Of a stretch of DNA of 39,339 nucleotides, positions 19,924 to 39,193 are shown piece after piece (the first letter of the stretch is position 1; each line of letters opens with the position of its first letter). The stretch is from the NCBI GenBank assembly GCA_903858015.1, contig CAIOGZ010000090.1, positions 1-39,339 of the forward strand, given 5' to 3'. The position numbers and the translations under genes were made by a program. The notes beneath the pieces are model-generated. The model worked only from the letters and a program-made list of their open reading frames with translations, had not been told where the DNA came from and ran no database searches. This DNA is from an uncultured cyanobacterium. GTDB taxonomy: Bacteria; Cyanobacteriota; Cyanobacteriia; PCC-6307; Cyanobiaceae.

Positions 19924-20004
19924 CGCTACCCCTTGCCAGGTTCGGTTGAATAGGCCCGATTCCCGGCGGTGCACCCGGACGAACCGGGGCCCGCACACCG
20001 TGCC

Positions 20005-20853
20005 ATGCAGCGAACCTACCTGGCCCTGGCCAGCCTCACCATGGCCGCTTCGCTGCTCGCCATCAGCCCCACCCACCGGGGCCAGGCCGAAGGCCGCGAC
20101 GGCGTACGAAGCGGCGATTTATTTGGGGCGCGGCCCGTGGATTCAGGCCGCTACGCCGTGCTGGGCCGGCCCCTCGGCCAGGGCGAGTGGACCCTGCTGG
20201 TGCTGGAGCAGATCCTGCCAGCGCCGCGCTGCTGGCAGAGCCGCCCCGATGGCCTGATCGATCCAAGCCTGAACCGCTTTGACTTCAGTGGGATCTGCGG
20301 GCGTTATCTCGACAGCAACGGCTATTCGCTGCGCCTTGGCAACCGGGAGGGGCGTGCCAATTCTGCTGGTCCCCTGCGGCTGCGCTTGCAGGAGGTTGGA
20401 TCGCAGCTGCAACTGCTGGCCTCGGCCCCCGATCTGGCCCACGAGCTGGTGGTGGGTCGCGGCGCCATTCCTGGCCGGGACCGGGATGGCTTGGTGGCAC
20501 TACGCCTCAATCCTGGCTGGGAGCTGCAACGACGCACTTACGGCGCCCAGGTGCTGAACCACGTCTATTTCGCTAACCCGGCCAGCGCCGACCAGCTGAT
20601 CGCCGCCGCCGCCGTCCAGCGGCCCGATTGGCGGCGGATGGAGGGACGCCCTTCCTACCCGCCATTGATGCCGCCGCCGCCACCGGCTGTTCCGCTGCGG
20701 GGGAGCCGCTCCAGCTGGCGGCAGTCATCGCCTCCAGCTTCGCTTCCACTGTCGCTTCCAACATCGCCTCCAACATCGGCAGCGATCCTTGCCCCAACGC
20801 CAGGGGCGCAGGGCCGGGTGGTGGCCCTCCAGGTGATCCCCTTCCGCGACTAG
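20005..20853 (+). CDS. Secreted DUF3747-domain protein with Pro/Ser-rich tail
   Basis: From the ATG at 20005 the product is 282 residues. A short signal peptide ([17 protein letters not shown]) is followed by the cyanobacterial DUF3747 pattern: [30 protein letters not shown], then [21 protein letters not shown] with a cysteine pair. A beta-rich half follows ([22 protein letters not shown]). The last 80 residues are a Pro/Ser/Thr-rich tail, probably a wall or surface spacer. Its function is unknown. It is divergent from rnhA; an ATG-less extension upstream was not used. Confidence 0.85.
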
Positions 20854-20911
20854 GGAGCCAGGCCACTTGCTGATCCGGACTGCAGCAACGAGCACCAGCC
20901 CAACTCTTGTC

Positions 20912-21020
20912 TAAATTCTTCTTGTGAGGAGTGAGGGACGAACCAGAGGGTCGAAACGAGGACAGACTCCCGAGGAACGTTCCATCTCAACCCCCCGCTG
21001 TCTGCGGGGGGATTTTTTTT
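20912..21020 (+). ncRNA. Candidate small RNA of about 97 nt (possibly Yfr2/Cyano-1 family)
   Basis: A -10-like TAAATT (20912-20917) would start RNA near 20924, and a strong intrinsic terminator ends it at 20991-21020. The roughly 97-nt product contains TGTGAGGAGT (20923-20932), exactly complementary to ACUCCUCACA, which I recall as the conserved Yfr1 core. A GGAGT/ACTCC pair can close a 5' stem, followed by single-strand purine-rich GAAACGAGGA. The length is near that of Yfr2-type RNAs from marine picocyanobacteria, which have been proposed to pair with Yfr1. I cannot confirm the family from memory. It could instead be the 3' UTR of the DUF3747 gene. Confidence 0.45.
20991..21020 (+). terminator. 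Intrinsic terminator of the candidate small RNA
   Basis: A perfect 8-bp GC stem (CCCCCCGC at 20991-20998, complement at 21004-21011) with loop TGTCT is followed by A and eight T (21013-21020). This is one of the two clearest rho-independent terminators in the window. It points rightward, while the only rightward gene upstream ended 138 bases earlier. Confidence 0.9.
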
Positions 21021-21074: not shown

Positions 21075-21098
21075 AAAAGCCGGTCACGAGGACCGGCT
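21075..21098 (-). terminator. Intrinsic terminator of the rplJ-rplL transcript
   Basis: On the minus strand an 8-bp stem AGCCGGTC/GACCGGCT with loop CTCGT (plus 21078-21098) runs directly into TTTT (plus 21075-21078). It lies 84 bases after the rplL stop and should end the ribosomal-protein operon. Confidence 0.75.
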
Positions 21099-21181: not shown

Positions 21182-21565
21182 TCACTTGATCGTGGCTTTG
21201 CCGCCGGCCTCTTCGAGGGTCTTCTTGAGGGTTTCGGCATCGGCCTTGTTGATGCCTTCCTTGACGGCCTTGGGAGCAGCCTCCACAAGGGCCTTGGCTT
21301 CGCCTAGGCCGAGGCCAGTGGCCTCGCGGACAGCCTTGAGCACCTTGATCTTGGAAGCAGCGTCGAAGCTGTCGAGGATCACGTCAAACTCGGTCTGCTC
21401 TTCAACGGGCTCGGCCGCGCTAGGGGCGGCAGCAGCAACAACGACGCCGGCCGAAGCGGCGGCGGAAACACCGAAGGCCTCTTCAATCTGCTTGACAAGC
21501 TCGGAAGCTTCCAGCAGCGAGAGGGTCTTCAGCTGTTCAAGGATCTGGTCAGTGGTAGCGGACAT
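21182..21565 (-). CDS. rplL: 50S ribosomal protein L7/L12
   Basis: This 127-residue stalk protein recruits translation factors. The N-terminal dimerisation helices ([26 protein letters not shown]), an Ala/Pro-rich hinge (about 35-53) and the conserved C-terminal domain ([24 protein letters not shown]) are all present. The last gene of the operon, it is preceded by a structured 102-base spacer after rplJ and followed by an intrinsic terminator. Confidence 0.98.
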
Positions 21566-37804: not shown

Positions 37805-39193
37805 TCAGTCCAGATCCGGCATGGCCAGGGTGGGTTCGGCCTGACGGTCGATGCCCTTTTCAAAGCCGGCGGCGGCAGCACGGGCCCGGCCGGCATGCCA
37901 GAGGTGACCCACCAGGAAGAAGAAGGCCAGCACGAACTGGGTCGCGGCAAGCCACTGGCGGATGTTGACGAAGTTCACCGAGTTGGGCTCGGTGATGATG
38001 CCACCAACGGAATTGAGCGAGGCGTTGGGGGCGTGGGTCATGTACTCAGCCGCACGACGCACCTGCCAGGGCTGGATGTCGTTCTGGAGTTTGTCGAGGC
38101 TGAGGCCATTGGGGCCGCGCAGCGGCTCCAGCCAGGGACCGCGGAAATCCCAGAAACGCATCGTTTCACCACCAAAGATGATCTCTCCAGTGGGGGAGCG
38201 CATCAGGTATTTGCCGAGGCCGGTCGGGCCCATGGCTGAACCGATGTTGGCTCCGAGGCGTTGGTCGCGCACCAGGAAAGTGAAGCTCTGGGCCTGGGAG
38301 GCTTCGGCGTTGGTGGGGCCGTAGAACTCTGACGGGTAGGCGGTGTTGTTGAACCAGATGTAGGCCGAAGCCACGAAGCTCATCAGGCTCAGGGCACCGA
38401 GGCTGTAGCTCAGGTAGGCCTCACCATTCCAGATGAAGGCGCGCCGCACCCAGCCGAAGGGCTTGGTGACCACGTGCCAGATGCCGCCAAAGATGCAGAT
38501 CAGGCCGATCCAGATGTGGCCACCGATGATGTCCTCCATGGAGTTCACACCGATGATCCAGCCCTCGCCACCAAAGGGAGCTTTGGTGAGGTAGCCGAAG
38601 ATCACACCGGGGTCGAGGGTGGGATTGGAGATCAACCGCACATCCCCGCCGCCGGGGGCCCAGGTGTCATAGACGCCGCCAAAGAACATCGCCTTGAACA
38701 CCAGCAGCAGCGCACCAACACCGAGAAGGATGAGGTGGTAGCCGATGATGTTGGTCATCTGGTTCTTATCGCGCCAATCTTGCGAGAAGAAGGCCGAATA
38801 GTTCTCCAGAATCTCAGGTCCCCGCAGGGCGTGATAAAGACCACCAACGCCGAGCACAGCCGAACTGATCAGGTGGAGCACGCCCACCACAAAGAACGGA
38901 TAGAGGTTGGTGACTTCACCACCGGGACCAACGCCGTAGCCCAGGGTGGCGACGTGGGGGAACAGGATCAGACCCTGTTCATACATGGGCTTGTCGAAGG
39001 TGAAGTGGCTCACCTCAAACAGCATCATCGCGCCCGCCCAGAACACCATCAGACCGGCATGGGCCACATGGGCACCCAGCAGGCGACCGGAGAGATTGAT
39101 CAGGCGAGCGTTGCCAGCCCACCAGGCATAGCCGGTGGAGTCGAGGTCTTTGCCGCCGACGGAGACAAGACCGGGATTAAAGGGCGTTTCCAC
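37805..39193 (-). CDS. psbC: Photosystem II CP43 chlorophyll-binding protein
   Basis: This 462-residue core antenna protein of photosystem II has six TM helices and a large lumenal loop between the last two. Conserved features include [51 protein letters not shown] and the lumenal [14 protein letters not shown], in which the Glu (a ligand of the oxygen-evolving cluster) and the Arg of the RGPW stretch are kept. The start is the GTG at 39193 (reading ETPFNPG), inside the end of psbD, as is standard; an upstream open extension was rejected. Confidence 0.98.

Follow-up and report, generated by a model that had tools for sequence, protein, structure and literature searches.

The DNA between two convergent genes of this cyanobacterial genome, one for a DUF3747 protein and the other rplL, raises the question of whether it encodes a small RNA of its own and, if so, whether that RNA acts on a second small RNA, Yfr1. 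A preliminary description of the window (the whole stretch of DNA analyzed, 39,339 nt) had proposed a Yfr2-type RNA with a separate start and terminator, whose 5′ end is complementary to the Yfr1 core. Published work is cited by PMC number.

The yfr2 gene and its conservation within the genus

Searched against Rfam release 15, the window gave two matches above cut-off. One, at 38590–38776 (+; 154.8 bits), is to IsrR, the isiA antisense RNA, here presumably opposite an isiA-like gene. The other is to Cyano-1 (RF01701), the model by which the preliminary description had proposed to check the locus; it lies at 20918–20987 (+) and is the only such match across the 3.84-Mb genome. Its score of 42.3 bits barely exceeds the cut-off of 41, which counts against the explanation favored below. 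We take the Cyano-1 model to stand for Yfr2, an assumption backed by the 5′ and loop motifs, which match the description in PMC2662882. The features of the locus, in window positions, are:

19969..20853 (+): gene for a DUF3747 protein, same-strand upstream neighbor (Pfam PF12565, E 8.7e-39; start unsettled, ATG at 20005)
20862..20880 (+): upstream box GCCACTTGCTGATCCGGAC, a candidate regulator site at about −62 to −44, conserved in the genus
20912..20917 (+): −10 promoter box TAAATT, kept as TANNNT across the genus loci
20924..21020 (+): yfr2 small RNA gene, ~97 nt, with a putative start at 20923–20924 and its end in a T run
20924..20933 (+): invariant 5′ block GTGAGGAGTG, predicted to form a duplex with CACUCCUCAC of Yfr1
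20936..20982 (+): central interrupted stem-loop (helices 1 and 2), 5 of 12 consensus pairs changed on both sides with pairing kept
20953..20964 (+): 12-nt loop GAAACGAGGACA, the second conserved single-stranded motif, 10 of 12 positions invariant in 41 genus loci
20991..21020 (+): Rho-independent terminator (helix 3), 4 of 9 pairs changed on both sides among 34 distinct genus sequences
21182..21565 (−): rplL (ribosomal protein L7/L12), convergent downstream neighbor (Pfam PF00542 and PF16320)

A 12-nt loop and an interrupted stem are traits of the Yfr2 family (PMC2662882). Both are found here, the loop at 20953–20964, as is the unpaired 5′ end of the family, GUGAGGAG, at 20924–20933. This block is unpaired in the consensus structure; in the predicted fold of the isolated sequence it is only partly so (0.22–1.0 per base), some of its bases being able to pair with 20986–20988, which is a further point against the favored explanation. 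The terminator is as first described: a stem at 20991–21011 with eight G-C pairs, then an A and eight Ts up to 21020, the whole 138 bases past the DUF3747 stop at 20853. A terminator scan is not significant alone, with two sites of terminator type found in 2 kb where shuffled sequence would give 1.7; conservation in relatives is significant. Folding energy (z −1.56, not significant) was dropped as support, and a sigma-70 scan of the locus found no two-box promoter; comparison with relatives was used instead. Rfam gives no second Yfr2 copy in the genome, and the sole other match to the loop pattern (G000:C92:139356) has two mismatches and lacks the GTGAGGAG 5′ end.

Cyano-1 matches are present in 41 of the 42 genus genomes, one per genome, 22 of them above and 19 below the cut-off, the latter again a point against the favored explanation; the remaining genome is 73% complete. 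The Rfam cut-off as it stands thus misses 19 of 41 clear Yfr2 loci of the genus. Yfr1 is matched in 40 of the 42 (the two others are 85% and 64% complete), and both RNAs occur in every one of the 33 genomes with a completeness of 90% or more. All 41 Yfr2 loci were read, 11 fetched separately and 30 from the genome-search output. GTGAGGAGTG is identical in every one, and GGGTCGAAAC and the loop flanks GGGTC and GACTCC are likewise invariant. The ten-base site originally pointed out, TGTGAGGAGT, is present at 20923–20932 (+) as a single copy in the window (0.01 expected), but its first T is not fixed in relatives: the base preceding the 5′ block is T in 18, G in 11, C in 9, and A in 3 of the 41 loci. 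Because this base varies, the conserved unit is shifted by one, to 20924–20933.

The consensus structure has 21 pairs, with 98.0% of 714 cells paired. Nine of the 21 have changed on both sides, against a shuffled mean of 3.0; none of 500 shuffles reached nine. Sliding the structure by 1–3 columns lowers pairing to 31–61%, a comparison in which the unslid structure is favored because it was derived from the same sequences. Ahead of the RNA, TANNNT stands at the −10 place in 41/41 genus loci (control windows, 0/802), CA[GC]TT at −60 to −64 in 40/41 (control windows, 44/1525), and CCGG at −49 to −52 in 37/41. The conserved promoter box supports the proposal of a separate transcript with its start near 20924. 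The window RNA is a real, ordinary, newly recognized gene of the known Yfr2 family, for which the evidence, all of it from sequence, is the Rfam match and conservation.

Yfr1 as presumed partner

The preliminary description had proposed locating yfr1 in the genome, and there is one: a single Rfam match (RF01116) of 64.7 bits at G000:C15:27767–27823, flanked by what read from sequence as trxA (thioredoxin) and guaB (IMP dehydrogenase). The same gene order has been reported at most yfr1 loci (PMC2190773). The Yfr1 core, given in the preliminary description as ACUCCUCACAC, is the same as that printed in PMC2190773; it has one genomic copy, inside yfr1. The Yfr1 undecamer ACTCCTCACAC also has one copy in the 3.84-Mb genome, inside yfr1, a count that means little by itself because the reversed control pattern occurs once too. 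The 10-mer ACTCCTCACA has three genomic copies (reversed control, one): in yfr1, on the strand opposite the window site, and on the strand opposite a presumed acsF coding sequence. The mRNA of the latter (L189, 1501–1510) carries UGUGAGGAGU, the same Yfr1-core complement as Yfr2, and could be a Yfr1 target or a chance occurrence.

The Yfr1 core is complementary to the 5′ end of the window RNA over 11 contiguous bases, and CACUCCUCAC is present in the Yfr1 of all 30 genus loci read (40 genomes have a match). When the two RNAs are cofolded, the 5′ end of Yfr2 comes to lie on the Yfr1 core, with a predicted energy of −15.4 kcal/mol for dimer minus monomers. Among 496 random 57-nt pieces of the window the mean was −3.5 (SD 2.7), with two equally strong; none of 300 shuffled Yfr1 sequences was. 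Rfam match, yfr1 gene, and complementarity together bear out the Yfr2-type reading. The suggested kissing complex fares less well: the duplex prediction has a 5′ tail of the window RNA pairing with the open Yfr1 linker, so a plain antisense duplex appears to fit better than a loop–loop contact. A word search for “kissing” in PMC2662882, PMC6778093, and PMC2518516 gave no occurrence.

At a probability of roughly 0.88, we infer that the locus is a Yfr2 (Cyano-1) gene with its own start and terminator, whose RNA would be expressed, pair in the cell through its 5′ end with Yfr1, and titrate it. Transcription from the −10 box would begin at 20923–20924 and run to the terminator, ending near 21020. 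Through its 5′ end (GUGAGGAGUG) the RNA would pair with the open core of Yfr1, encoded elsewhere in the genome, and so keep Yfr1 from its mRNA targets by titration, as Yfr1 in turn would titrate Yfr2; the conserved GAAACGAGGA loop would be a second contact site. Pairing of the Yfr2 5′ end with the Yfr1 motif has been proposed before (PMC2518516). The Yfr2 and Yfr1 of Prochlorococcus MED4 co-purify; in E. coli, Yfr2 relieves the repression that Yfr1 exerts on a GFP reporter; and RNase E cuts Yfr2, a cut that Yfr1 blocks in vitro (PMC6778093). By analogy with MED4, the window RNA probably titrates Yfr1, and mutually so. Yfr2 is induced under nitrogen limitation, as cited from an earlier study in PMC7368042.

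Linked and scattered copies across the family

The genomic place of yfr2 is nearly constant in the genus: rplL is convergent downstream in 40 of 41 loci, DUF3747 upstream in 40, rnhA upstream in 40, and all three are present in 39. At one locus (L004) rplL is absent within the 1.5 kb examined, and another (L012) is near a contig end; L004 was placed in neither of the groups below. A scan of named genomes gave three records with a relative of the DUF3747 protein, the closest of them in a Cyanobium metagenome bin (59% identity). Outside the genus, 92 loci were inspected from 77 genomes and 40 genera of the same family. The sample is not random: 30 are the best-scoring, 25 come from genomes without Yfr1, 36 were chosen partly by match length, and one (G184) by pattern. 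Of the 92, 43 are rplL-linked; they come from 43 genomes of 27 genera and have rnhA upstream in 41 cases and DUF3747 in 19. A linked and a scattered copy occur together in 8 of the 77 genomes. One locus (L199, g47) counted as scattered has rnhA upstream and may be a linked locus with rplL unreached.

This distribution bears on two readings in which the stretch is no regulator. It might be no more than the 3′ untranslated region of the DUF3747 mRNA with its terminator, the hairpins stabilizing or ending that message; the RNA does start only 71 bases past the DUF3747 stop, both share one strand, and the DUF3747 gene precedes yfr2 in 40 of the 41 genus loci. This seems improbable, with the −10 box and upstream box conserved just ahead of the 5′ block and a DUF3747 match upstream in only 19 of the 43 linked loci outside the genus; in examples from g45, g24, g8, and g32, the closest upstream match is rnhA, on the opposite strand. 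For Synechocystis Yfr2a, too, which follows trxA at a distance of 94 nt, a separate start has been mapped (PMC2662882).

The site is also between convergent genes, as a two-way terminator for rplKAJL and DUF3747 would be, and Axmann 2005 (PMC1242208, Table 1) lists for two marine strains, MIT 9313 and WH 8102, as cluster 226, a “possible bi-directional terminator of the rplKAJL operon,” which may be the rplL-linked Yfr2 copy. We consider this function for the window site the least probable of all. On the minus strand no T run follows the hairpin; a separate rplL hairpin with a short T run is visible at 21075–21098 by direct reading; and the most conserved parts, the 5′ block and the loop, are not needed by a terminator.

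All 83 linked loci (40 in the genus, 43 elsewhere) have a GTCGAAAC loop; the loop of the 49 unlinked loci is GTGGAAAC in 39, GTCGAAAC in 9, and neither in one. The 5′ block pairs with CACUCCUCAC at 10/10 positions in 80 of the 83 linked loci and at 9/10 in the other three, compared with 10/10 in 2 and 9/10 in 25 of the 49 unlinked ones; these are counts of loci rather than of independent events, and pairing was scored against the Yfr1 core for genomes without an Rfam Yfr1 as well. Among the 80 fully pairing blocks 69 are identical; the other 11, from 10 genera, have G in place of A, so that a G-U pair remains, a substitution that probably had only a few independent origins.

A gene in one place in many related cyanobacteria is mildly new, set against a literature in which yfr2 has no fixed place: its position is not fixed in four genomes (PMC1242208), and yfr2 genes “occur at unconserved loci” (PMC6778093). 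A search of the open library alone found no printed record of Yfr2 with Cyanobium, rplL, rnhA, or L12. The rnhA-(DUF3747)-yfr2-rplL copy could, tentatively, be a distinct ancestral Cyanobiaceae orthologue specialized as a Yfr1 sponge, its 10-base match kept by selection. The scattered copies, mostly of GTGGAAAC loop, would in that case have arisen by later duplication and have fewer matching bases and different functions; the recurrent A-to-G change would be tolerated because the G-U pair remains.

Upstream elements also vary with place. The −10 pattern is found in 39 of the 43 linked loci outside the genus (control 3.0%) and is weaker in the scattered copies, at 21 of 48 (control 10.7%); one of the 49 scattered loci was left out of the upstream counts for lack of upstream sequence. 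Among non-genus loci, a pattern similar to CA[GC]TT is present at 29 of the 48 motif hits, and a stricter half-site pattern occurs in 28/41 genus, 29/43 linked, and 30/48 scattered loci. The palindrome AACTGNCACNGTGNCAGTT (AACTG.CAC.GTG.CAGTT), sought within 95 bases upstream of the RNA, precedes 11 of the 48 scattered copies (e.g., L138, L144, L148) and none of the 84 genus and rplL-linked ones; many of the latter have something like its right half. The palindrome and the upstream box at 20862–20880 are both candidates for the published CGRE1 element, a GntR site.

Across the 151 family genomes searched, Cyano-1 is matched in 141 (up to eight times in one genome) and Yfr1 in 119. The 32 genomes without Yfr1, 20 of them listed and 12 obtained by elimination, were re-searched with laxer filters, and none gave a Yfr1 match at E 0.1. 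Yfr2 is present in 29 of these 32, in 28 by the model and in G184 by reading, and the 32 loci read from them (among the 45 matches listed, plus G184) all keep GTGAGGAG or GTGAGGGG. Since these genomes mostly keep both Yfr2 and motif, Yfr1 cannot by itself account for the motif; where an Rfam Yfr1 is absent, Yfr10-like RNAs may do so.

Completeness is 90% or more in thirteen of the 32, namely six genomes of genera g10, g13, and g39, six of g8, and G065. The bare undecamer was rejected as a sign of a Yfr1-like RNA, and only its context was used, because the reversed control hits 11 of the same 13. In the six g10/g13/g39 genomes the undecamer stands directly ahead of a terminator-like hairpin, a context that to us resembles the Yfr10 reported for SS120. 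All six g8 genomes drawn lack an Rfam Yfr1, and they share an element that contains the Yfr1 core exactly (GTGAGG..ACTCCTCACACGAGG..terminator; L179, 1486–1560, and also L168, L171, L172, L178, and L183), with no Rfam match at it. It is found in 6 of the 151 family genomes, all g8; two loci were checked for neighbors, and in each the element precedes a gene with a UvrB_inter domain (mfd-like). It could be a Yfr1 substitute. G065 (L162; 95% complete) gave neither Yfr1 nor Yfr2, only a single undecamer in neither of these contexts. The pattern agrees with the idea that any undecamer-bearing RNA can maintain the Yfr2 motif, although a single double absence proves nothing.

Retention of the motif without an Rfam Yfr1 would also follow if Yfr2 acted mainly by binding mRNAs through its loop and 5′ end, Yfr1 pairing being secondary. 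The loop is conserved nearly as well as the 5′ block, and in MED4, with Yfr2 as bait, 404 peaks were enriched, which were assigned to 302 mRNAs (PMC6778093). Such a main role is the most serious of the rivals considered, though on balance unlikely: the linked block pairs with Yfr1 at all ten positions in 80 of 83 loci, and only one of the three exact 10-base complements in the genome, that in yfr1, is in a recognized RNA gene.

Comparison with known systems

The yfr2 gene of the window is an expected gene, and titration of Yfr1, the reading preferred here, would extend the Yfr1/Yfr2 sponge pair to a genus with one Yfr2 per matching genome, where genetics could be cleaner than in multi-copy marine strains. 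The syntenic copy also offers a fixed reference by which to tell orthologues from duplicates, in a family of RNAs without a described fixed place.

With the Yfr2 family (Yfr2–Yfr5 of Prochlorococcus MED4, Yfr2a–c of Synechocystis) the window RNA shares its ~97 nt length, the GUGAGGAG 5′ end, the terminator, and an interrupted stem with a 12-nt GAAAC-AGGA loop; for the family trait of an own start and a stable transcript of 80–100 nt, the counterpart seen here is the conserved promoter boxes. It differs in its loop context, GGGTCGAAAC...GACTCC as compared with GTGGAAACAAGGAAACAC in most scattered copies, and the genus differs in having a single Cyano-1 match per matching genome and a conserved place beside rplL. 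Yfr1 (RF01116) is the presumed partner, its core complementary to the window RNA, which bears the complement of that core rather than the core itself; lacking ACUCCUCACAC between two hairpins, it is not a Yfr1. GlmY/GlmZ and other small RNAs that regulate small RNAs, named in PMC2518516, are alike in the principle of one small RNA acting on another, a likeness that implies no relation of sequence or structure.
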